From Bradyrhizobium japonicum USDA 6 (GTDB taxonomy: Bacteria > Pseudomonadota > Alphaproteobacteria > Rhizobiales > Xanthobacteraceae), in contig NC_017249.1 of assembly GCF_000284375.1 (NCBI RefSeq), positions 2,024,001 through 2,088,000 of the forward strand: a DNA stretch of 64,000 nt. Direction: 5' to 3'. The position numbers were made by a program, and so were the translations under genes. How positions within the stretch are numbered: position 1 is the stretch's first letter; the number at the start of each line of letters is the position of its first letter. Shown here in pieces: positions 22,532-38,027 of the stretch. The notes under the pieces were generated by a model that saw only the letters and a program-made list of their open reading frames with translations, made no database searches and had not been told where the DNA came from.

Positions 22532-22606
22532 GCTCCCTTCGTCTAGCGGTTAGGACGCGGCCCTCTCAAGGCTGAAACAGGGGTTCGATTCCCCTAGGGA
22601 GCGCCA
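22532..22606 (+). tRNA. tRNA-Glu (anticodon CTC)
   Basis: The cloverleaf folds fully. The acceptor stem GCTCCCT pairs with AGGGAGC, the anticodon arm is CGGCC-CTCTCAA-GGCTG with anticodon CTC, and the T arm GGGG-TTCGATT-CCCC is standard. The CCA end is encoded. The gene borders the accessory region to its right, a typical integration target, but no repeat of its 3' end was found in this window. Confidence 0.96.
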
Positions 22607-23326: not shown

Positions 23327-26300
23327 TCAGGAACCGACCCGGTCAATGAGCGGACCATCTTCTCCGATGGCACGGAAGCGGTAAAAGCGAACGCTGTCTT
23401 GCAAATAGTTGAATTTCTGGCGCGCGAGCTGGAAGAACTTCTCGTCGCAGGTCGAGATGATGAATTGCCGGGTGCCGAAGTCTGACTTCAGCAGACCCAT
23501 GATGAGATCCAACAGCGCATAGATATTGAGATCGTCGAAATGCGTGACGGGATCATCAAGAAAGACCGGCGCCAGCGACGACCAGTTTTGTCCGCTGCAG
23601 GCCGTCAGGAAGAGACCGAGTTGCAGCGTTTGCTTCTGGGATTCGCTGAAATAGTCGACGGGCCGCAGCTCGACGCCATGCCGCTTGACTGTGACCGAGA
23701 TATCGGACCTGCGATTGACGATCTCGACGTCGTCGAAGCCGTAGACCGATCGAAGCCGGCGCTGAATGACCGATGTCCGCGGGCCGTATTGGCGCGTGAA
23801 GTTGGCGATGGCCGCAGCCTGTTCGTCAGACAGAATCTTCTCGATCGCAGCGAAGTAATCCCGCCAGGGCTTGCACGCGGCACGCGACGCCTTCTTCTCG
23901 GCGATGAGCTTTTCTTTCGTCGCGATGGTCGATTCAAGCCGGGCGAGCGCGGCGGCGGTTGTCGCGGCATCGAGGCCGATCTCGGCACTTGCAACACGCT
24001 GGTGCAGGGCGCGCAGGCGGGCAAGCGCCTGGGTTTCTTCCCCCAGTTTTCCGAGCAATTCCTGCTCGTCGGAATCTTCCGGTAAACCGGCGTCGGCAAG
24101 CCGCGCGATGATGGCCTTGCGTGCTTGTTCGTTCTCGTTTGCGCTCCTGCGGAGGATCGGGAGTTGGCCTGCGAGCTCCCCGAGAATACGTGACTCCGCA
24201 TCGAGCAGTCCCTGCAGCCTTGTCTGTTCCTGTGTTGCGGCATCGTGAGATTGGCGAAGCTCATCGAGTAGCCCCAAGCGATCGTGCTCCGCATTATTCA
24301 ACTCACCATCGTTCGAATCCAACGTCACGCCACTCAAGCGCGGGTCGCTACGTAATGTCGTGAGCCCCTTGCGAATTCGCTCCAGTTCCGTATTGACCGC
24401 GGTCCTCGCCGACTCTTGCTGGGCGATCGACTTGGTGAGCGCATCGAGGGCGGCCTTTGCCGCATCGGCAGCATCCGCAGCCGCCTTCACGGCAGCATTG
24501 CTGCCTTCTATCTCCTGGCGTGCTTCGGTGGAATTGATCGCAGTCTGCCGGCTCAATTCAGTCAAACCGGCAGATGCATTCAGACCGAGACCATTTGCCG
24601 TGTTCGTCCAGACATTAATCTCGCGATCACGGACGATGCGATCGTTTGCGAGTTGGCTCAATTGCGTTTGAATGGACTTTTGCGCCTCACGATTTCCGGA
24701 GAGCTGGCGGGTGATTTCCTGGATACGCTGCCGCAGCCCAGCGAGTTCGGTGCGTGCCGTCCCCGCGCTGTCGAGTGTCATCTGCCCCTGGATATGACGG
24801 ACGAGCTCGTCCTGATTTCCGTGATCGACGCCGCACAGCGGACAGTTGCCGTCCGTGATATGCTTTTGCAGCTGGGAAAGTAATTGTCGCAGCTCGGACT
24901 GGCTGCGATCGGCATCGGCGATCACCCGCTCGAGGGCTGTCTGCTGTGGGGTACTCGCATCCAGTTGCGCTTGCAGCGTTGGCTCTTCCGCCCGCAACTC
25001 CAGCAAGGTCTGGTTCAGGGTCGTTTCCTGCTGCCTGATTTCGGCGAGACGGTCGGTGCTTGCCTTCCACGGACCCAAGGCCGCACGAAGCGCTTCCAGA
25101 TCGGCGGAACGCTTCCTCGCCGCAGCCTGCCGTTCAACGGACATCGCGAGCTGATTGGATTTTTGCTGCAGGTCGGCCGAGGCGGTTGCGGACCGGTTGC
25201 GATCTGCGGCGATCGCCTCGGTCGCCCGATTGAGACGCTCGGTTTGGATATTGAGCGAGTTGAGCGCGGTCGCGTAGCCTGGGCGCTGATCGCGTACCCA
25301 TTTGAGATTGTCGAGCGCCGATTGAGCCTGCCGGATCTGGGCGGCGATCTCTGTAACGCGCTTGCGGACAACGTCCAGTTGCTGCTGAACGGACACTTTC
25401 GCTTGCTCGGCAGTCATCCTGCGAGCATCGCCCGCTTCGAGCTGCGCGCGCAGGTCCTTCCCTTCCTGGATGAGAGGGGGCAGCCGGACGACTTCTTTTC
25501 CAAGCTCGGAAAGAAGGGTGATCCTGCCCTCGCTTTCAGCGATGCGGGCTTCCAGCGCTGCTCGCCAGCCACGCGCTGTGGCGGCATCGATTGCGCCGGA
25601 ACCGGCGTCGACGCCGATTTCCTTCAACGCGGCGCGCAAATTGCGCAGCTCGGCATTGAGGGCACCGATGTTCGATTTATCCTTGATGGTACGACGAAGG
25701 CCATCGAGCTCGGACTTGTCCGTCTTCAAGGATGCCGTGGTGTCCGCTATCTCGGAAGAAAGCGCATCGAGGCTGTTCTCGAGTATCGTCACGATGTTGG
25801 CGGACTTTTTCAACGCGTTCTCATAATCCTCGAACGCCAGCATGCGCGAGACGATCTCGCGCGGCAGCGTGCAATGATCCTTGAAACTCTGCGTCAGCGC
25901 CTGATTGTCCTGACTGAACAGGTGGGAGGCACGGAACAAGCTGATAAGATTGTCGATCCGTTCGGCGACGGCGTCTCCGCTCTTCGTCAACTGCTTGAGG
26001 ATCGACTTACGGTCGGCCGCCGATCCGTCCAAGGTTGCGTGCGTCGCATCAGCGACAGTCCTGTCGATCGTGTGCGATGTTCCGTTGGATCGATATGTCA
26101 GGGAGACCCGGGCGTCTTCTGCTTCGCTGTCGAGATGCTTCGCGACCTCGCGGAAGTGATCGTTGCCGGTAACCTTTAAGCGTCCAATCGAACCGGTGAC
26201 ACCGAAGTCGATGGCATCGAAGAATGAAGTCTTGCCGAATCCGTTGGGTCCATAGAGCACCGTGATCTCGCTGCCGATCTCGAACGTCATCGGAGCGCGG

Positions 26301-26950
26301 TACGCCCGGAAGTTCTCGATCGTGACCGATTCCAGCAAGACAGGCGCGCCAGGCTGCTCGCCGGTGACCACAGATAGCGTGGCCACGCGTTTCGGTGCTT
26401 TCGGGCTTCCATACTCGTTAGCAAGACACGCTTCGACGATGCGTTCGGCACTTCGTTCGTGCTGAACCACGATATGCCGTGCCAGCGATGCCGGTACGTC
26501 CGATTGCTGAAGGAATGTTTGAGCCGAGGCCGGACGAAGGGCCGGCCCGTCAAGTTGCCTCAATGGCAGGAAGGGCAGCCGCGCGAGTGCGTTCCCGACG
26601 TGCTCGGTGAGCGGCACCACGAATTTGCGGCAAAAATAGACGTCGGTTTCGATGCGCGAAGCGAGCTGGTCAAGCTTGTCAGCGTCTGGCGATATGCAGA
26701 GCACGTAGGACAGATCGAATTGATCCCAGTCCTTCGATCGCTCGGCCTCGGCCTTGAATGCCTCGTAGGTTTCCTCGAATGTTGCGTGCGGATCGGAACC
26801 TGCAAAGGCAAAGGCGGCGACGACCCGATTGGTTAGCAGGATGGTGACGGGGAGACCATCTCCTGCCTCCAATACCGAGAGGGTGCCCCCCGGCACCTGA
26901 CCGAGGCACGCCTTCACCGCTTCCGCGTGACCTTCGCTAAGCGCCGACAT
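23327..26950 (-). CDS. SMC/Rad50-like coiled-coil ATPase with CxxC hook
   Basis: A 1207-residue protein. Residues 1 to about 205 form an unrecognised N-terminal domain. An ABC-type head follows: Walker A GPNGFGKTSFFDAI near 233, ABC signature-like YFSESQKQTLQLGLFL near 1105, Walker B APVFLDDPVTHFDDLN near 1130 and a final ISTCDEKFF switch. The middle is long coiled coil broken at about residue 700 by NCPLCGVDHG, a zinc-hook-type CxxC like that of Rad50 or RloC. The ATG at 26950 overlaps the upstream hydrolase gene by 14 bp, so the two are translationally coupled. A role in sensing DNA and driving the partner hydrolase is inferred. An in-frame ATG at 26992 is less likely. Confidence 0.85.
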   Translation of the reverse strand: MSALSEGHAEAVKACLGQVPGGTLSVLEAGDGLPVTILLTNRVVAAFAFAGSDPHATFEETYEAFKAEAERSKDWDQFDLSYVLCISPDADKLDQLASRIETDVYFCRKFVVPLTEHVGNALARLPFLPLRQLDGPALRPASAQTFLQQSDVPASLARHIVVQHERSAERIVEACLANEYGSPKAPKRVATLSVVTGEQPGAPVLLESVTIENFRAYRAPMTFEIGSEITVLYGPNGFGKTSFFDAIDFGVTGSIGRLKVTGNDHFREVAKHLDSEAEDARVSLTYRSNGTSHTIDRTVADATHATLDGSAADRKSILKQLTKSGDAVAERIDNLISLFRASHLFSQDNQALTQSFKDHCTLPREIVSRMLAFEDYENALKKSANIVTILENSLDALSSEIADTTASLKTDKSELDGLRRTIKDKSNIGALNAELRNLRAALKEIGVDAGSGAIDAATARGWRAALEARIAESEGRITLLSELGKEVVRLPPLIQEGKDLRAQLEAGDARRMTAEQAKVSVQQQLDVVRKRVTEIAAQIRQAQSALDNLKWVRDQRPGYATALNSLNIQTERLNRATEAIAADRNRSATASADLQQKSNQLAMSVERQAAARKRSADLEALRAALGPWKASTDRLAEIRQQETTLNQTLLELRAEEPTLQAQLDASTPQQTALERVIADADRSQSELRQLLSQLQKHITDGNCPLCGVDHGNQDELVRHIQGQMTLDSAGTARTELAGLRQRIQEITRQLSGNREAQKSIQTQLSQLANDRIVRDREINVWTNTANGLGLNASAGLTELSRQTAINSTEARQEIEGSNAAVKAAADAADAAKAALDALTKSIAQQESARTAVNTELERIRKGLTTLRSDPRLSGVTLDSNDGELNNAEHDRLGLLDELRQSHDAATQEQTRLQGLLDAESRILGELAGQLPILRRSANENEQARKAIIARLADAGLPEDSDEQELLGKLGEETQALARLRALHQRVASAEIGLDAATTAAALARLESTIATKEKLIAEKKASRAACKPWRDYFAAIEKILSDEQAAAIANFTRQYGPRTSVIQRRLRSVYGFDDVEIVNRRSDISVTVKRHGVELRPVDYFSESQKQTLQLGLFLTACSGQNWSSLAPVFLDDPVTHFDDLNIYALLDLIMGLLKSDFGTRQFIISTCDEKFFQLARQKFNYLQDSVRFYRFRAIGEDGPLIDRVGS

Positions 26951-28751
26951 GGGCAGCAACTTTTTGTGAGAGTTCCTCGACGGTAGTCGCATTGATGAAG
27001 GCGGCGATCAACCCTTGATAATCGACGTGGATGATCGCGCTCTCGGGATCGGTGATCTTGCGCTCGTCACCAAGCTTTGGCTCGCTGGTTTGAAGGATGC
27101 TGCCAGATCGGCGCCGGCGCGGCAGGTTCTCACGATCGCGTGTGACCAGGATTGCCTGACGGCGGGTATTCGGCGTGAATTGGATTTGCGCGTATTTGTG
27201 GCAATGGTCATGTGTCTTGCCCCGTACGGCGAGGAGATCAAGGGTCTTCCCGCCGAGCGACACCGTGGCATGTCCAGCATTTTGATCGTCTGCAGTGACC
27301 CCGCCGCACACGCCAAACAGATCGAGCGTATTCACCACGTGGCCGAGAGCGCTGCGTTCATCAGTGTCCCACGCATCGGCGTCGTCTTCGGACCCGGCGC
27401 GTCCGCTTGCCTGACCGTCGCGCGCGGTGGCCAACTTGATCACCCGGTCGCAGGAGGATGCAGGGAGCGCGCGCAACTCCTGAATCGACGTGGCATGAGC
27501 GGCGTCGGCACGGGCGCCGAGGTCGCCCGCAGGCTGCAAATCGCTGAGGCTCGTTACATCGTCGAGCTCATCGTTGACCCATTTGACGCAGGCCGGGACC
27601 AGGTTGGATGGCGTGCGTGGATCGGGGGGAGCTGCCAGCGGGAAGACGAACGGTCGATCGACCGCGAACGTGCGGTGTGCCGCACCAGCGATCACGGAGT
27701 CGGGATTGATCTGGACGAACGAATGAATGCACGCGCCTTTCTCACGGAAATACGCATCGCGGAAGGGATTCAGCAGCGGATTACCCCTGAACCGTTGACC
27801 GCCCTTCGCGACGGTCGGCCGTGAAGGCATTTCCTGAAACAGCGTTTGTTGTGAGAAGACAACGCTGGTGCCGCCGTAGACCGCGGATCGCCCAGGGACG
27901 GGCTTGCCTGCGCTGTTGGCGAACACGAGGCATGTGCGGTCCCGCCGGACGTTCGGCACAGTCGTTCCGTCAAAGAAGGACGCTACCTCGCCCATAAACG
28001 ATGGGTGCGACGGCCACGTGTTGCATTGGATGACGAACATCCATGAAAGCGCCAGCTCGCCTTCGCCAGCTTGCACGCCGAGATCATCGAGGGCCCATCG
28101 CCACGACCGCTTGGTGCCGATCGTGGCGATCCAGTCGAAACAGATCAGCGAGGAAAAACGGTACTTCTGGCCATTGGACAAAGTTCCCTTGAAGGAAAAG
28201 ATCGATTTGCCCCGGTACATGTTTTGATAGGAGATGGTCTGCTCTTGCCAGGCTGGCCAAAGCTTTGGCTGCAGCCAGCGTTCGACCGTTCCATTTTCGG
28301 CCTTCGTCCAGATGATCGCGCAATTGATCCATTCGCCGGCGCCGATGTTGTCCAGCCCGTTATGCTCGGTATCGAAGTGGCTACCCACGCGACCGGCCAG
28401 ACTTGCGAAGTCGGCCTTTGAGAGCGCATCCACCCCGCCGATGACGATCGTTCCTGCGGGCCATTGCGCATCCGCGAGCGCGGCGTCGATCAGCTCGACC
28501 CCCTCCAGACCGGGGATGCTGTATTCCGGGAAGATCGTGAAATGCGTTTTCTCGGCTTGATGAGGCGCGGCCCGCGAGACAGCCAGTGTCGCAGTCAGAT
28601 TGCCCAAGAGCTCGGGTCTGCCGGCAGGGGGAGTCCTGTACGGCTCCTGCTGCGTCAGTGTCAGATGCGGTTGGGCGATCACCATCCCCACACGATCGTG
28701 CGGCAGCAGGATGCCCCGCTCTGTTAGGTCTACGCGTGAGATGTGGATCAT
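26937..28751 (-). CDS. Carbon-nitrogen hydrolase (nitrilase superfamily) with C-terminal extension
   Basis: A 604-residue protein. The first ~380 residues carry the nitrilase Glu-Lys-Cys triad in the right order: E76 in FTIFPEYSIPG, K163 in RWLQPKLWPAW and C204 in SSLICFDWIA. Family members hydrolyse amides or nitriles through the Cys. The C-terminal ~200 residues do not resemble a known domain. It is about twice the usual family length. It is the first gene of a two-gene operon with the hook ATPase and sits in a defence island, so an immune effector role is possible. The substrate is unknown; it could instead be metabolic. Confidence 0.8.
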   Translation of the reverse strand: MIHISRVDLTERGILLPHDRVGMVIAQPHLTLTQQEPYRTPPAGRPELLGNLTATLAVSRAAPHQAEKTHFTIFPEYSIPGLEGVELIDAALADAQWPAGTIVIGGVDALSKADFASLAGRVGSHFDTEHNGLDNIGAGEWINCAIIWTKAENGTVERWLQPKLWPAWQEQTISYQNMYRGKSIFSFKGTLSNGQKYRFSSLICFDWIATIGTKRSWRWALDDLGVQAGEGELALSWMFVIQCNTWPSHPSFMGEVASFFDGTTVPNVRRDRTCLVFANSAGKPVPGRSAVYGGTSVVFSQQTLFQEMPSRPTVAKGGQRFRGNPLLNPFRDAYFREKGACIHSFVQINPDSVIAGAAHRTFAVDRPFVFPLAAPPDPRTPSNLVPACVKWVNDELDDVTSLSDLQPAGDLGARADAAHATSIQELRALPASSCDRVIKLATARDGQASGRAGSEDDADAWDTDERSALGHVVNTLDLFGVCGGVTADDQNAGHATVSLGGKTLDLLAVRGKTHDHCHKYAQIQFTPNTRRQAILVTRDRENLPRRRRSGSILQTSEPKLGDERKITDPESAIIHVDYQGLIAAFINATTVEELSQKVAAHVGA

Positions 28752-29274
28752 GCCGGAATGAACTTGCAGGAAGGCGTCGAAGTCATGGACTTCGACTTGG
28801 TTGGACCACGAGAATTGGCTCCGCCAGGAAAGTGTGGCCGCCGCTCCTACAACTTATAGGCTAGAGTACGAAACCCGCACAAGAGCGTTCCTTGCAGGCG
28901 CCGCGCCCCTCCGTCGCGATGGCCGGCGAACGTCGTGGCTCAATCGCTGTTTGCGTGAATTTCGGAAACGAAGCCTGCTTTAAACGATCAGACGGAAGAC
29001 GCAGGGAGCCATGTCTTGGCTGCGTCGGGTTGGAGCGATGCCCCTAACTAGCGGAAATGTAGCATATTTGGGATCGCGGCCCTTGTGCGCGCGATGGCTG
29101 AGCCTTTTAGCAAGCGCGGTGAAATGCCGCGTGGGGATCGAAGCCCTCGGAGGGCCGGGACGCGGCTTGGATCATGAGAGCCTCGGTCCGCGCCTGCGGA
29201 CGCGCCTTGAAGCGGATATCAGGGAACGTACTAATGTGTGATCCGGTTCGCGAGATTCGAAGGAGTTGTATTGC
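28752..29274. other. Divergent control region in the island
   Basis: This 523-base spacer separates the minus-strand hydrolase/ATPase operon from the plus-strand TIR-like operon and must hold promoters for both. I recognise no operator, repeat or RNA. AAGGAG at 29259 is the ribosome site for the next gene. Confidence 0.4.
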
Positions 29275-30495
29275 GTGATAATATTTTGGTCATGGCAGTC
29301 GGACGTCCCGAAGGAGATCGGCCGCTTCTTCGTGCGTGACGCGTTGCGCGAGGCTATCCAGACGTTGAAGACCGACCAGGAGTTGCTGGAGCCGGTCGAG
29401 CGCGAGGCCGCGTCACGGCTTGCGATGGACTCAGACCGGCAGGGTGTGCCGGGAAGCCCCGATCTTGCGGCAACGATTTTCGAGAAGATCGAGAAGGCCG
29501 ATGTGTTCCTCGCCGACGTGACGCTCGTCGGCGAAACGCCCGACGGGAAGAAGCTCATCAACTCCAACGTCGCGATCGAATACGGGCACGCGCACCGCGC
29601 GCTCGGCGCGCGGCGCGTACTGATGGTGCAGAACCTTCATTACGGTGATGGCGATGCGTTGCCGTTCGACCTGCGGCAAAAATCCTGGCCGCTGCACTAC
29701 AGTCTCGCGCCCGGCGCCTCCAAGGCGGAGATCAAGGCGGAACGCGACAAGCTTAAAGTTCAGTTCGTCGCGGCGCTCCGCCCCTACCTCACCATGGCGG
29801 CGGCAGCAGCGCCGGACCATGTCCCGACGTCCACGACGTTCACTGAGGCCGTGTTCTTCCAGCCGGGCGAGATCCTCGCGCAGAACCATATGCCGCCGCC
29901 GGATGCGATTGACTACAGTTTCAGTCGGCGGGACGCGCTCTATCTGCGCCTCGTGCCGGTAGGGGCACGCGCGACGCCGCTCAAACTCACCCGTCTCTAC
30001 GATGATGTGCTGAACCGGCGCGTCGATCTCCTCCTGCGCAATCTTTACATGGGCGTCGGCGATCGCAACGCCTATGGCGCCATCACCTACGAGTCGCACG
30101 GCACGGCGACCGAACCGCGTGCATTCACGCAAGTGTTTCCCAACGGCGAGTTCTGGGCCGTGACGACGGAGATGTTCGTTCATCATCAAGAAGACGATCT
30201 GATCCCGACCACGAATGTGCAGAGCATCTTCGGGCGCGTGCTCGAGAATTTCGTGGTATTGTCCAATAGTTACGGTAACGGCACGCCGCTGCGGGTGATC
30301 ATGGGCGGTGTCGGCTTGCGGGGAAAGCGCCTCGGCATCGGCCGCCACCAAATCAGCCAGCCGATCCATGTCGACGCGCGGCACATCGAGGCCGAGTTGG
30401 CGACGGGATCACAGGAGGAACGTGACGCCGCCATGGCGGCGTGGCTGGCCGAACTCTACGATATTGCCGGCGTTCGGCACACGGACATGGAATAA
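29275..30495 (+). CDS. TIR/nucleoside-deoxyribosyltransferase-like protein
   Basis: A 406-residue protein. Residues 1-170 match a TIR-like family that opens with an IIFWSWQSDVPKE strand and continues with DRQGVPGSPDLAATIFEKIEKADVFLADVTL and NSNVAIEYGHA. These positions resemble the nucleotide-binding edge of TIR and deoxyribosyltransferase folds, with E near residue 99 a candidate catalytic residue. Such domains in immune loci often degrade NAD+. Residues 170-406 are an unrecognised, possibly sensing, domain. The GTG at 29275 fits the AAGGAG ten bases upstream; a TTG at 29266 is also in frame. The next gene starts directly after its stop. Confidence 0.72.
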   Translation: MIIFWSWQSDVPKEIGRFFVRDALREAIQTLKTDQELLEPVEREAASRLAMDSDRQGVPGSPDLAATIFEKIEKADVFLADVTLVGETPDGKKLINSNVAIEYGHAHRALGARRVLMVQNLHYGDGDALPFDLRQKSWPLHYSLAPGASKAEIKAERDKLKVQFVAALRPYLTMAAAAAPDHVPTSTTFTEAVFFQPGEILAQNHMPPPDAIDYSFSRRDALYLRLVPVGARATPLKLTRLYDDVLNRRVDLLLRNLYMGVGDRNAYGAITYESHGTATEPRAFTQVFPNGEFWAVTTEMFVHHQEDDLIPTTNVQSIFGRVLENFVVLSNSYGNGTPLRVIMGGVGLRGKRLGIGRHQISQPIHVDARHIEAELATGSQEERDAAMAAWLAELYDIAGVRHTDME

Positions 30496-33588: not shown

Positions 33589-34521
33589 ATGGTGGAGACA
33601 GAAGAACCCAAGGTTTGCCGCATCCTCAGCCTCGATGGCGGGGGTGCAAAGGGATTCTATACCCTTGGGGTCCTGAAGGGCATAGAGGGAATGGTCGGCC
33701 CGCTGCATCAGCGATTCGACCTGATTTACGGCACCAGCACGGGCTCGATTATCGCGGCACTTCTCGCGCTCGGGCATTCGGTCGATGAGATTCTAGAACT
33801 CTACAAGACGCATGTCGTCGAGGTCATGAAGTGTTGGCTGCCGGGCAACAAGACGGCGGCGCTGCAGGCTCTCGCCGACCATGTGTTCAAGGACCAAGAC
33901 TTCGCAGCTATAAAGACCAACGTCGGCATCGTCGCGACGCGCTGGGCGTTCGAGACACCGATGATTTTCAAGACCTCTGTCGACCAGGCACACGGCGACA
34001 AGCCGAATTTCGTGCCGGGTTTCGGCTGCAAGATAACAGACGCGGTGCAAGCGTCTTGTTCGGCATATCCATTCTTCAGGAAGAAGACCGTGACGACGAG
34101 TGGCGGCGAGTCGATTGTGCTCATCGACGGCGGCTATTGCGCGAATAATCCGACATTGTACGCGATTGCGGACGCGACGAACGCGCTGAAATTTGACCGT
34201 AAGCAGATACGCGTGGTCAGCGTGGGTGTTGGCGAATATCCCGCGCCGAAAAAGGGCGTGTTCAGTGCGATGCGCTGGATAGGCTATTTCTTCACGGTTC
34301 GGCTGCTGCAACGGGTTCTCGAAATCAACACGCAGTCGATGAACCAGCTTCGTCACATTCTCTTTCAGGACATCGACACGGTACGAATAAGCACCCGGTA
34401 CACCGAACCTGAGATGGCGACGGATCTGTTCGAGCATGACCTGGCGAAGCTGGACCAGCTCTGGCAGCGGGGACGGCAATCGTTTCGCGACTATGAAAAT
34501 GCATTGAGGAAGATTCTATAG
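33589..34521 (+). CDS. capV: CBASS effector: patatin-like phospholipase (CapV type)
   Basis: A 310-residue patatin-family lipase. The oxyanion motif is SLDGGGAKGFYTLG at residues 14-27, the nucleophile Ser50 lies in YGTSTGSII, and the catalytic Asp is in LIDGGYCANN near residue 180. The next gene is a cGAS/DncV-like nucleotidyltransferase 9 bp downstream, the defining CBASS pair: on phage infection the cyclic nucleotide activates the phospholipase, which degrades the inner membrane. The assignment is from domain plus context; cyclic-nucleotide binding cannot be read from the sequence. Confidence 0.88.
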   Translation: MVETEEPKVCRILSLDGGGAKGFYTLGVLKGIEGMVGPLHQRFDLIYGTSTGSIIAALLALGHSVDEILELYKTHVVEVMKCWLPGNKTAALQALADHVFKDQDFAAIKTNVGIVATRWAFETPMIFKTSVDQAHGDKPNFVPGFGCKITDAVQASCSAYPFFRKKTVTTSGGESIVLIDGGYCANNPTLYAIADATNALKFDRKQIRVVSVGVGEYPAPKKGVFSAMRWIGYFFTVRLLQRVLEINTQSMNQLRHILFQDIDTVRISTRYTEPEMATDLFEHDLAKLDQLWQRGRQSFRDYENALRKIL

Positions 34522-34530
34522 GAGAGCGGC

Positions 34531-35435
34531 GTGGCAATTCCTGAGACTCAGCTTGAGACGTGGACGCACATAGGCGCCGCCGCGCAGTCCGCGGCAACGT
34601 ATCAGTCCATTAAGGGCGTCATCGAACACAAGGACGCGCCTTATTCGTCCCGACGCATCGACTCGTTCCTGCAAGGGTCATACGGCAACGATACGAACGT
34701 CTACGGCGCGGATAGCGACGTCGATATCGTCCTGCGCACCCGAGGTCTGTTTCACTACAACATCGATGCCCTGTCAGGGCCGGAAAAACGGCATTCAAAA
34801 CCGCGTATCCAACCCCTGCCGAATACACCCTGGAGTCATTTCGGACCGATGTAGTCGCGTGGCTCGACAAGCAGTACGGAAGCGACCTGGACACCTCGGG
34901 AAAGAAAGCCCTGCGGCTTAAGGCGAATGGGACTCGGCGAAGCTCCGACATTCTGCTGGTCGCGCCGCACAAGAAGTATTCCCGCTACTTCAGCGAACAG
35001 GACAAAGAGTGCATCGAGGGCGTACTATTCATCACGACCAACGGGACTGAAATCGTCAATTACCCGAAGCAGCATTCCGAGAACATGACTCGGAAACATC
35101 AGGCGACGGCCGAGTGGCTCAAACCGACCGTGCGCATCTTCAAGAACATGCGCAATCGGCTCATTCGGGACGGGAAGATAAAGAGCGGCGTCGCCCCCTC
35201 CTACTTCATTGAGGGCATGCTTTACAACGTGCCAGTAAGCGAGTTCGGCGTGAGCTACGCGAACACGGTCGATAAATGCTGGGGCTGGCTCAACAGTCCG
35301 CCAGATGCCGGCGCCCTCATGTGCGCTAACGGCATCCATCCGCTCGTTCGCGACAACAGCCATACGTCTTGGCCCATCCAGGGCTATCTCGACTTCTTGG
35401 CGGAAACTCAGAAGCTCTGGGTCCAGTGGAAGTAG
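34531..35435 (+). pseudogene. CD-NTase (cGAS/DncV-like) with a one-base frameshift
   Basis: The start is GTG at 34531. The first frame has the nucleotidyltransferase signature: Gly49-Ser50 in FLQGSYGNDTN and the DxD pair D63/D65 in SDVDIV. It stops at 34854. Reading on in the -1 frame from the five-A run at 34784-34788 gives an uninterrupted continuation (GPEKTAFKTAY...), with the third catalytic Asp in RRSSDILLVAP, to a stop at 35435. With one A restored the product is 301 residues, a normal CD-NTase length. It makes the second messenger for the phospholipase. Whether the break is real or a consensus error is open. Confidence 0.82.
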
Positions 35436-35442
35436 GCTTCTG

Positions 35443-36135
35443 ATGACTAGCCACACGGCGGACGAGGCGAAAGCCGCGAACATAGCGGCCATGGGTGGGC
35501 CGCTTGGCTCGCTGTACTCAGCCCTCTGGCAATCGGTAGCGGTCGTTCACGTTTATTGGAAAGAGTATGTCGAGCTGTTCGGCAGCAAGCCCGAGCGCAT
35601 CGACCTACTCAATAGAGCGGCGCCGGCCTTCTTTCACATGCTTCAAGACGAGCTATGGGAGCTAACGCTGCTTCGTATCTCGCGTCTCACCGACCCGGCG
35701 AAGACCGGTAGGGCTGGTAGACAGAACCTGAGCATCCAAGCGCTGCCGCCGTTGATAGGCGACGCGAGGCTGAAGGCTCGGGTAACGCAGCTCGTCGCGG
35801 ATGCGGTTTCGGAGACTGCATTTTGCCGCGACTGGCGAAACCGAAGGATTGCTCACAGCGACTTGCTGCTCGCGCTCGAACAACCGACCAAGCCGCTCGC
35901 GGACGCGAGTAGGCTGAAAGTGAAAACGGCGTTGTTGTCGCTAACAGCCGTCCTCAACGCCGTCGCCGGGCACTATATGGATTCCGAGAGCCGCTTCGAC
36001 CTGGGAGGGCGAATTAACGGTGCCGTCACCCTGCTCTATGTTTTGAACGAGGGGGTGAAGGTAGGAGAGGCCCGCGAAAAGCGACTAGAGGAAGGGAAGC
36101 CGATCCCGGAAGACTTCCGTCGCGAACACATATGA
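35443..36135 (+). CDS. HEPN/AbiU2-like third gene of the CBASS operon
   Basis: A 230-residue helical protein starting 8 bp after the CD-NTase stop. The segment FCRDWRNRRIAHSDLLL carries an R-N-x3-I-A-H pattern that fits HEPN RNases and AbiU2-like abortive-infection proteins. Other helices show no known motif. Type I CBASS usually has only a cyclase and an effector, so this could be a second effector, an accessory protein or an unrelated passenger. It has no Cap2/Cap3 (E1/E2/JAB) features. Confidence 0.65.
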   Translation: MTSHTADEAKAANIAAMGGPLGSLYSALWQSVAVVHVYWKEYVELFGSKPERIDLLNRAAPAFFHMLQDELWELTLLRISRLTDPAKTGRAGRQNLSIQALPPLIGDARLKARVTQLVADAVSETAFCRDWRNRRIAHSDLLLALEQPTKPLADASRLKVKTALLSLTAVLNAVAGHYMDSESRFDLGGRINGAVTLLYVLNEGVKVGEAREKRLEEGKPIPEDFRREHI

Positions 36136-36198: not shown

Positions 36199-37305
36199 TT
36201 AGATTGGCAGATCCAGCTGTGGCTCCGCGCCATCTTCGGGGTGTAGCGATGAGAGTGAGATACCTAAGAGCCGAACCGGTCTTGGAAGAGGCGTTTCGTT
36301 CTCGAGCAGGCTGATGACCAAGCGCTCCAGATCGCTTCTGCTCGACACGGCGGTGGGGACAGACCTGCTGCGTGTCATAATCTCGAAGTCTGCAAATTTG
36401 ACCTTCAGCGTTACTGTCCGGCCCCGCGAGCCCTTTTCTTCGCAATGCCGCCAGACCTTGTCGATCAAAGGCTGCACTTCCGACACCATTGCCTCGAACT
36501 CAATGAGATCAGTGGAGAACGTATTTTCTGCACCCACGGATTTACGCACGCGGTCGGCTCTGACCTCGCGGTTGTCGACACCCCTCGATATCGAATAGTA
36601 ATAGGTTCCGGCCTTGCCGAAATTGGTCTGCATAAATTCGAGGGACTGATTGCGCATGTCGAGGCCTGTGTAGAGACCAAGGGCGTTCATCTTGGCGCCG
36701 GTTGCCGGCCCAATTCCATGAAACTTGCCGACCGGCAGGTTTTCTACGAATGCCGGGCCCATCTCCGGCGTGATGACGTACTGGCCGTTAGGTTTGCGGT
36801 GGTCGGAAGCGAGCTTCGCCAGAAATTTGTTGTAGGAAATGCCGGCCGAAGCGTTGAGGCCGGTTACCTCCTTGATTTTCGCACGGATCGCGAGCGCGAC
36901 GTCCCGAGCCAACGGAATGCCCTGGAGATTTTCGGTCACGTCGAGGTAGGCCTCGTCCAGCGACAGCGGCTCGATGGTCGGGGTATGCTCGGCGAAGATT
37001 TCGCGGATTTGCTGTGAGACCGCCTTGTAGACCTCGAAGCGGGGTTTCACGAAGATCAGATCGGGGCACTGCCGCTTCGCGGTAACCGATGGCATGGCCG
37101 ACCTGACGCCGAACTTGCGCGCTTCGTAGCTGGCCGCCGCCACGACGCCGCGCTCCCGGGATCCTCCGACGGCGACCGGCTTACCGCGGAGATCAGGATT
37201 GTCCCGCTGCTCGACGGATGCATAGAAGGCATCCATGTCGATGTGGATGATCTTGCGTTGGCGGCCCGGGGAAGCTGCCTGATCGTCATCGTCCTCGGTG
37301 GTCAC
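36199..37305 (-). CDS. dinB: DNA polymerase IV (Y-family)
   Basis: A 368-residue translesion polymerase. IIHIDMDAFYASVEQRD near residue 20 and PLSLDEAYLDV near 115 supply the catalytic acidic residues. The little-finger domain follows, and the C-terminus ends AEPQLDLPI, a beta-clamp-binding motif. The GTG at 37305 overlaps the TGA of the SRAP gene as GTGA, so the two are translationally coupled. A longer in-frame start at 37569 lies inside the SRAP gene and is rejected. The operon carries a LexA-type site upstream, in line with SOS induction. Confidence 0.93.
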   Translation of the reverse strand: MTTEDDDDQAASPGRQRKIIHIDMDAFYASVEQRDNPDLRGKPVAVGGSRERGVVAAASYEARKFGVRSAMPSVTAKRQCPDLIFVKPRFEVYKAVSQQIREIFAEHTPTIEPLSLDEAYLDVTENLQGIPLARDVALAIRAKIKEVTGLNASAGISYNKFLAKLASDHRKPNGQYVITPEMGPAFVENLPVGKFHGIGPATGAKMNALGLYTGLDMRNQSLEFMQTNFGKAGTYYYSISRGVDNREVRADRVRKSVGAENTFSTDLIEFEAMVSEVQPLIDKVWRHCEEKGSRGRTVTLKVKFADFEIMTRSRSVPTAVSSRSDLERLVISLLENETPLPRPVRLLGISLSSLHPEDGAEPQLDLPI

Positions 37306-38027
37306 GTCGTTAGCCCGGCCGTGTCTTCCTTGACGCCGCGGGCGACGATCTGGAGCGTTCCGTCGGCAAGCGGTCGCTGCAACTTCAGGGCCTCGTCGAG
37401 AGGAGCCGTCATCCAGGTCTCGACTTCGTCCGGCGTCGTCAGGATCACCGGCATCGCCTTGGGGTGGATGGCGCCGACCTCGGCGTTCGGCTCCGTCGTA
37501 AGAAATGCATAGAGGTCGTTGGTGGTCTCGCCTTCCTTGACCTTCCGAACAGACATCCAGTTGGTCCATATGCCGGCGAAGCAGGCGAGGGGACGGGTCT
37601 CATCGAGTGCGAACCAGATATCACCGCCCTCGGCCTTGTTGAACTCGCTGAAGGAGTTGAACGGCACCACGCAGCGGCTTTCGGTGCCCAGCCATCTCGT
37701 CCAGTGCTTGCTCTTCACGTTGCGGATGTTGGTCGTGCCGCCGTCCGGCTCCATTCGCAGCAGTTCCTTGAAATCGACGGTCTTGCCCTTGGCCTGCAGC
37801 TTTTCGGCTCGTTTCTTGGTGGCGTCCATCAGGGCTTTTGACGACGATGGCATTCCCCACCGCGCTGTCGCGAGTTCGCGGCCCTCGGCCCCGTTACGCA
37901 CGATTGGTGCCGTGTAGTCCGGAAAAACCCCCGGCATTGGCGCCAGATTGCCGACGTACCGGTTCACGACGCGAAACAACGCGATGATAGCGGCTTGGTT
38001 GGTCGTGATCGAATAGAGATTACACAT
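37302..38027 (-). CDS. SOS response-associated peptidase (SRAP, YedK/HMCES family)
   Basis: A 241-residue SRAP protein that forms a covalent bond with abasic sites in single-stranded DNA and so shields them. Cys2 (MCNLYSI) is the nucleophile after Met removal. Asn in TNIRNVKSKHW, Glu in CVVPFNSFSEF and His in IHPKAMPVIL match the other active-site residues. It is the third of four minus-strand genes ending in dinB. Confidence 0.92.
   Translation of the reverse strand: MCNLYSITTNQAAIIALFRVVNRYVGNLAPMPGVFPDYTAPIVRNGAEGRELATARWGMPSSSKALMDATKKRAEKLQAKGKTVDFKELLRMEPDGGTTNIRNVKSKHWTRWLGTESRCVVPFNSFSEFNKAEGGDIWFALDETRPLACFAGIWTNWMSVRKVKEGETTNDLYAFLTTEPNAEVGAIHPKAMPVILTTPDEVETWMTAPLDEALKLQRPLADGTLQIVARGVKEDTAGLTT

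Follow-up and report, generated by a model that had tools for sequence, protein, structure and literature searches.

Lamassu immune systems have been described as sensing DNA ends or secondary structure through an SMC-like component (PMC10586767; PMC12904381), and they comprise two genes in type I and three genes in type II (PMC12409362). A 2023 review of SMC-based immunity lists 'C-N hydrolase' among the effector domains of LmuA, and states that LmuC is missing from some systems, that a zinc hook is present in many LmuB proteins and that the glutamate of the C-terminal Walker B motif of LmuB is generally replaced by glutamine (PMC10586767). Here we report on a gene pair, lmuA and lmuB, of Bradyrhizobium japonicum USDA 6, located in a stretch of 64,000 nucleotides (the window; positions 2,024,001–2,088,000) within a 9.2-Mb single-contig genome. 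A first-pass annotation of the window had presented the pair, a hydrolase of nitrilase fold coupled to a zinc-hook ATPase, as a candidate new defence system; the pair is instead a member of Lamassu with a probable nitrilase-like effector, and is ordinary in kind.

Other described systems share single features with the pair. Wadjet and RloC resemble it in the use of SMC/Rad50-like ATPases in defence, and RloC has a zinc hook; no Jet model was found for the LmuB of the window among the 25 of 55 PADLOC matches listed, and none for LmuA, while one weak JetC match (E 3.1e-6) occurred in the relative P0205. The likeness to ABC-3C lies in a match to its middle component 1 (MComp1, PF20289) together with an ABC ATPase. 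However, ABC-3C has three genes with the middle component as a gene of its own, whereas in the window there are two genes and the match falls inside the LmuB frame. DdmABC, the type II Lamassu of Vibrio cholerae, likewise combines an effector, an SMC-like ATPase and a middle component, but it does so with three genes and a Cap4 nuclease, whereas the window has two genes, a probable nitrilase-like enzyme and the middle-component match within LmuB. The LmuB of the window is also 1207 residues long, against the figure of about 650 residues for LmuB in the 2023 review (PMC10586767). Nitrilase effectors against phages are described for DRT1, a UG/Abi reverse transcriptase with a nitrilase effector domain (PMC13275509), and for the system of P4-like satellites that pairs a reverse transcriptase–nitrilase with a one-transmembrane protein (PMC9122126). 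Control in both involves the reverse transcriptase, in DRT1 by way of DNA adducts, whereas the partner in the window is an SMC-like ATPase, and PDB searches, the only comparison made, gave no sequence relation between LmuA and DRT1-type nitrilases. A literature search returned no paper tying either Lamassu or ABC-3C to a nitrilase; where Lamassu and an amidase were mentioned together, the amidase was an unrelated wall enzyme. DefenseFinder has 'Lamassu-Amidase' as a subtype name.

Assignment of the gene pair to Lamassu

Both proteins were matched end to end by Lamassu profiles of PADLOC-DB (version 2.0.0, 2023). The LmuA model PDLC03850 scored 955 bits (3e-288), with residues 1–602 aligned on model positions 1–603, and the LmuB model PDLC03861 scored 1746.9–1748 bits over residues 1–1207. 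The models are close in size to the proteins of the window (604 residues in both cases for LmuA; 1207 against 1213 for LmuB), and the same two models were matched by the seven relatives scanned, four of them LmuA proteins 52–62% identical to that of the window and three of them LmuB proteins. By these profiles the gene pair is a Lamassu system that PADLOC-DB already holds, and the claim of novelty therefore fails. We found no feature that separates the pair from PDLC03850 and PDLC03861, and, as PADLOC displays them, the models come with no account of what kind of effector they cover or of any middle-component fusion.

The lmuA gene lies 5' of lmuB, both on the minus strand. With the ATG at position 26950 as the start of lmuB, the two genes overlap by 14 bp (26937–26950), in agreement with the first-pass annotation, and LmuB has 1207 residues, which is also the length of eight of the 11 best LmuB matches; the longest open reading frame (ORF) at this place, 23327–26992, would encode 1221 residues. 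The same 14-bp overlap is present in the ORF lists of two loci with intact relatives of the pair, L031 and L033, and in the third, L032, it depends on the start chosen, because the longest ORF there begins three codons earlier. The ORF regarded as the nearest gene upstream of lmuA (29266–30495) has the opposite orientation. By blastn, two of the three intact relatives share, along with lmuA and lmuB, the stretch upstream of lmuA that is presumed to hold the promoter (Table 1).

LmuA as a probable nitrilase-like protein and LmuB with a possible fused subunit

LmuA is made up of an N-terminal enzyme part, with the catalytic set within residues 76–204, and a C-terminal part (approximately residues 400–604) outside known families. 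The nitrilase triad of E76, K163 and C204 stands at the positions first reported, and to it we add E170 as the likely second glutamate of a nitrilase tetrad. All four residues are kept in all 46 aligned LmuA proteins, that is, the protein of the window and 45 relatives (49–91% identity) of our own choice among the 120 listed of 443 found. Relationship to nitrilases was examined by profile–profile alignment (hhalign) of LmuA with CN_hydrolases of the same genome, for which there were 11 matches; nine were used at first, and eight once one containing a stop had been removed. Against the eight, the best path was collinear over all four catalytic residues, with scores of 37.7 and 33.3, one per direction. 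The 33.3 of the second direction, the one score for which decoys were made, was equalled by none of 150 column-shuffled decoys (best 25.4).

Several results speak against a nitrilase relationship. The Pfam family CN_hydrolase (PF00795) matched none of the 46 LmuA proteins, even at E <= 1; LmuA would thus be a distant relative of PF00795 at best, outside that family as Pfam defines it. The best Pfam match of the LmuA set was the unrelated-looking DUF2848, in two of the 46 members (E 5.8e-4). When single nitrilases were compared with LmuA, seven of the eight comparisons were weak, short or misplaced, and the sole good score (L024, 38.7) spans only residues 44–92, around E76. Because the hhalign probability for LmuA against the CN_hydrolases was only 34%, we grade the nitrilase fold as probable and no higher. 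A PDB sequence search with LmuA alone gave nothing at E <= 1; with the LmuA profile, one match was obtained, to the omega chain of RNA polymerase (E 0.62), and was taken as chance. The C-terminal tail of about 200 residues, described in the first-pass annotation as being of an unknown kind, kept that description: it has no convincing match, Pfam giving nothing at E <= 1 for the protein of the window and only scattered weak matches across the 46 members, the commonest of them in two.

The nitrilase superfamily, whose fold is an alpha-beta-beta-alpha sandwich, includes acyl and amide transfer, glutaminase and deamidase-type reactions. LmuA may accordingly be nitrilase-like without hydrolysing small amides: it could transfer acyl or amide groups, have glutaminase activity or be a protein deamidase with a macromolecule as its substrate. 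We judge this option fairly unlikely. Apart from the breadth of the superfamily, it draws on the observation that LmuA is close to none of the eight CN_hydrolases over its length. The retention of the E-K-E-C set in 46 of 46 proteins may be held against it, but this conservation weighs little in either direction, because it is compatible with hydrolysis and transfer alike. Our preferred reading of LmuA is that of a nitrilase-like hydrolase.

LmuB gave Pfam matches to AAA_23 and SMC_N, and the ABC/SMC head, long coiled coil and central CxxC that had been read in it are borne out, the CxxC (CPLCG at residue 703) being the only one in the protein. Its motifs are given in Table 1, with residues numbered from the start at 26950; the relatives in which their conservation was scored are our own choice among the 120 listed of 323 found. 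The usual signature, SGGQ/E, is replaced by FSESQ. A PDB search with LmuB alone returned 23 sequences, including Rad50/SMC-type heads and a retron ATPase, and at E <= 1e-6 a search with the LmuB profile returned only SMC1A. The PADLOC model for the anticodon nuclease PrrC also matched (E 1.4e-7), with the match confined to residues 1133–1194, the Walker B region.

Ahead of the ATPase head, LmuB has an N-terminal extension of about 205 residues, and because this extension matches MComp1, the third Lamassu subunit (LmuC-like) seems to be fused into LmuB here. For the protein of the window the MComp1 score varied with the stretch scanned, at 24.9 and 26.2 bits, below the cut-off of 27.3, and 28.0 bits, above it, in the genome frame, and MComp1 was detected at E <= 0.01 in 32 of 40 aligned LmuB proteins, that of the window included. 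Precomputed Pfam annotation shows it in seven of the 120 LmuB relatives listed. Two observations fit less well with LmuB as a Lamassu ATPase that contains its own middle component. The PADLOC LmuC models matched none of nine LmuB N-terminal domains at E <= 1, so that the MComp1-like region is no more than a candidate homologue of LmuC; and the Walker B motif has aspartate at the catalytic position in 39 of 39 relatives, whereas the 2023 review calls glutamine general for LmuB (PMC10586767). A PDB search with the profile of the N-terminal domain found nothing at E <= 5, and among 240 genomes sampled evenly across the class MComp1 occurred in one, the window's own genome.

A length-restricted search for relatives of the N-terminal domain yielded 97 short proteins. 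Thirty contain a Walker A motif by a simple pattern and are therefore longer pieces of the fused gene; many of the other 67, which were inspected by their last 35 residues and in 19 cases in full, appear truncated, frameshifted or joined to ends of unrelated sequence. The RPxSAQ motif was found without the start of the ATPase head and without Walker A in 30 short proteins. Among these, five proteins of 200–217 residues (P0246, P0247, P0259, P0296 and P0298) stop near the border of the LmuB N-terminal domain, and could be products of split genes or true separate middle components. Two of the 97 (P0311 and P0322) bear the NCBI name 'ABC-three component system middle component 1'.

Inheritance, decay and surroundings of the pair

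Of 265 genomes in the genus, six had LmuA; LmuB (E <= 1e-40) was found in five, each of which also had LmuA. Among 398 genomes sampled evenly across the phylum, LmuA and LmuB (E <= 1e-25) were found in the same two, one of them the genome of the window. Intact lmuA–lmuB pairs are present in four of the 265 genus genomes, namely the window's own, G490, G462 and G465. A tendency of the hydrolase to occur mostly without the ATPase, which had been named as a point against the defence reading, was not seen: in the four genus genomes with an intact hydrolase gene, an intact ATPase gene lies beside it, no search having been aimed at metabolic contexts, the other half of that point. By blastn, the pair aligns with those of G490, G462 and G465 as one block (5663, 5441 and 5645 bp; 84–87% identity), while the flanks adjoining it are not matched between the window and L031, L032 or L033. 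The only other matches to the window are in the region of its SRAP gene, in L032 (weak) and L033.

Of the seven genomes in which any LmuA was found, three have damaged copies of lmuA or lmuB (loci L034, L035 and L036). G405 (L034) has an internal deletion that removes the 3' end of lmuA together with the 5' end of lmuB; of lmuA, G409 retains only a remnant covering about 123 residues from the start; and in G294 lmuA is spread over two frames, with lmuB broken into three pieces. Such joint movement and joint decay are consistent with a costly immune module. In metagenomes, 27 of the 67 LmuA clusters with a longest contig of at least 8 kb are identical in contig size to a listed LmuB cluster, and across all 120 LmuA clusters 35 contig sizes are common to LmuB, compared with 0 or 1 after shifting by 14 small offsets. 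These figures, in which equal size stands as a proxy for the same contig, are a lower bound, as the best 120 clusters per search were compared and 119 of the 120 LmuB sizes entered; sharing of this kind would be expected of a pair that is common in metagenomes. Searches by tblastn of a plasmid collection found no LmuA (E 1e-5), no LmuB N-terminal domain (E 0.01) and no LmuB (E 1e-30). Pattern matching gave 94 matches but no relatives in viral contigs, and 17 matches with two relatives in genome contigs, both from Bradyrhizobium and not counted again beside G465 and G462.

One alternative keeps the Lamassu assignment and has the system directed chiefly against plasmids or other incoming DNA rather than phages. 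DdmABC is reported to act on plasmids as well as on phages (PMC12409362), but nothing in the sequence separates a plasmid-first role of the pair from a role against phages, and we regard such an emphasis as quite unlikely. The reading that we favour is a Lamassu system with either kind of invader as its target.

The first-pass annotation had placed the pair among CBASS and TIR-like genes, and this holds in part. A CBASS-type gene pair is present, in which a patatin phospholipase (PADLOC PDLC00755, 520 bits; NCBIfam DS2_1_antiphage, 490 bits, cut-off 400) is followed by a cyclase whose frame is interrupted in this assembly, since it is split over two ORFs (profile positions 1–94 and 184–297). 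The supposed TIR-like gene encodes a 409-residue protein that matches no Pfam, PADLOC or NCBIfam family at E 0.01; its DNA is conserved beside the broken lmuAB of G405 (L034). The longest ORF of an adjacent HEPN protein of the AbiU2 family overlaps the end of the cyclase ORF. The SRAP gene of the window lies about 8.5 kb from lmuAB, and a SRAP gene (PF02586 in L033, at L033:43-783) or similar DNA is found near intact or broken lmuAB in L032 (weak), L033 and L034. Ten ORFs were picked from the ORF lists of the relatives for a scan of the flanks. The four of L031 encode TIR_2, UvrD and polysaccharide deacetylase proteins and one protein without a family; the four of L033 encode EcoRII-C, AIPR, SRAP and DUF2130 proteins. 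Defence-like neighbours thus accompany the pair in the window itself and, among the three intact relatives, in L031 and L033. A point against is the L032 flank, where neither of the two ORFs scanned is a clear defence gene (one is patatin/NTE-like and one is without a family).

A tRNA-Glu gene is situated about 0.7 kb past the end of lmuB. The related island of G405 holds a 46-bp exact copy of the 3' part of this tRNA gene (L034:18389-18434), which is likely to mark an integration site; no second copy of the 3' part is present in the window. The position of the tRNA gene next to the pair and the copy in the G405 island could be taken to indicate a toxin–antitoxin-like module that stabilizes a genomic island. 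We consider this very improbable, as in L031–L033 the pair occurs apart from the other genes of the window's island, and an SMC-like ATPase of 1207 residues would make an improbable antitoxin. Scarcely credible, finally, is a Rad50-like DNA repair ATPase that happens to lie beside an unrelated metabolic nitrilase: LmuB does match Rad50 and SMC profiles (far under their cut-offs), and one source names several of its relatives exonuclease SbcC, but the 14-bp overlap kept in two relatives, the joint transfer and decay, the full-length PADLOC matches to LmuA and LmuB and a patchy presence (six of 265 genomes) that is unlike that of a housekeeping pair all argue otherwise.

Table 1. Features of the lmuA–lmuB locus and its neighbours, with positions in the window
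Feature	Position	Strand	Basis or remark
lmuA (putative effector, 604 residues)	26937..28751	-	PADLOC PDLC03850 match; hhalign to CN_hydrolases
lmuB (SMC/Rad50-like ATPase, long coiled coil, 1207 residues)	23327..26950	-	PADLOC PDLC03861; AAA_23 and SMC_N
Upstream stretch, presumed promoter region	28752..28982	-	blastn block ends: L031 28982, L033 28964, L032 28763
E76 codon, putative general base of nitrilase-type active site	28524..28526	-	E in 46/46; under FPE motif of CN_hydrolases
K163 codon	28263..28265	-	K in 46/46; under RKxxP lysine
E170 codon, likely second Glu of nitrilase tetrad	28242..28244	-	E in 46/46; under Glu of PTFHE in L020
C204 codon, putative nucleophile	28140..28142	-	C in 46/46; under Cys of CN_hydrolase nucleophile motif
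LmuA C-terminal tail, codons 400–604, proposed LmuB interface	26940..27554	-	Window protein without Pfam match at E <= 1
MComp1 (PF20289, ABC-3C middle component 1) match in LmuB N-terminal extension	26597..26776	-	Pfam
Walker A GPNGFGKTS, residue 234	26225..26251	-	Lysine in 40/40 proteins
Zinc hook CPLCG, residue 703	24830..24844	-	Both Cys in 39/39 aligned relatives
Signature-motif position FSESQ	23636..23650	-	SxSQ in 39/39 relatives
Walker B FLDDP, residue 1130, Asp in place of usual catalytic Glu	23549..23563	-	D-D-P in 39/39 relatives
tRNA-Glu	22532..22606		
Protein of 409 residues	29266..30495	+	No family
CBASS-type pair	33589..35435	+	Patatin phospholipase, then cyclase
HEPN AbiU2 family protein	35305..36135	+	PF18734, 72.6 bits
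SRAP gene	37302..38027		

Working hypothesis and significance

We hypothesize that the locus encodes a two-gene Lamassu system in which LmuB, with the middle component fused to it, senses DNA and the nitrilase-like LmuA is the effector, and we consider this the likely explanation of the observations. The assignment made in the first-pass annotation of the ATPase as sensor and the hydrolase as effector of a defence system fits with it. What is observed comprises the gene pair, its profile family membership, the conserved catalytic set, the middle-component match in LmuB and the joint inheritance in the genomes searched; for the DNA trigger, the release of LmuA, its tetramerization, the amidase activity and cell death we draw, by analogy, on the Lamassu and DRT1 papers. 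Our current model is that, in the resting state, LmuB would hold LmuA inactive by way of the C-terminal tail of LmuA. On meeting abnormal DNA of an invader (ends, hairpins or stalled forks), LmuB, which probably hydrolyses ATP poorly, would close on ATP, and its closure would release LmuA. The freed LmuA would then tetramerize through its nitrilase domain, completing the E76-K163-E170-C204 site, and the active enzyme may cut a C-N bond (amide or nitrile) essential to the cell, be it part of a protein or of a small molecule, so that the infected cell would, as in abortive infection, stop growing or die before the phage or plasmid could spread.

The tetramer step has a precedent on both sides of the comparison. 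Once released, LmuA of Lamassu is reported to form a homo-tetramer, which activates its Cap4 nuclease (PMC12409362), and the nitrilase effector of DRT1 is reported to be activated by an induced tetrameric state in which the contacts within the tetramer are made by the nitrilase domain only (PMC13275509). Taken together, these two tetramers suggest that release by LmuB may permit a nitrilase tetramer to form here. In its fullest form the proposal would be of a nitrilase-effector branch of Lamassu, with sensor and middle component in one protein, an LmuA that tetramerizes on release, a sensor unrelated to that of DRT1 but the same tetramer switch, and an essential amide or nitrile as target; this we put forward only tentatively, and with some doubt.

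The assignment places an effector that Pfam is unable to read in a named immune family. The interest of this member of the family lies in the match to a middle component in LmuB, in the Walker B aspartate, in a nitrilase-like effector that would need oligomerization to act and in the likeness to DRT1. If Lamassu and DRT1 both employ nitrilases as effectors, the question of what it is that nitrilases cut becomes a direct one. It would also mean that two unrelated sensors, an SMC-like protein here and one that works through DNA adducts in DRT1, drive the same kind of enzyme.

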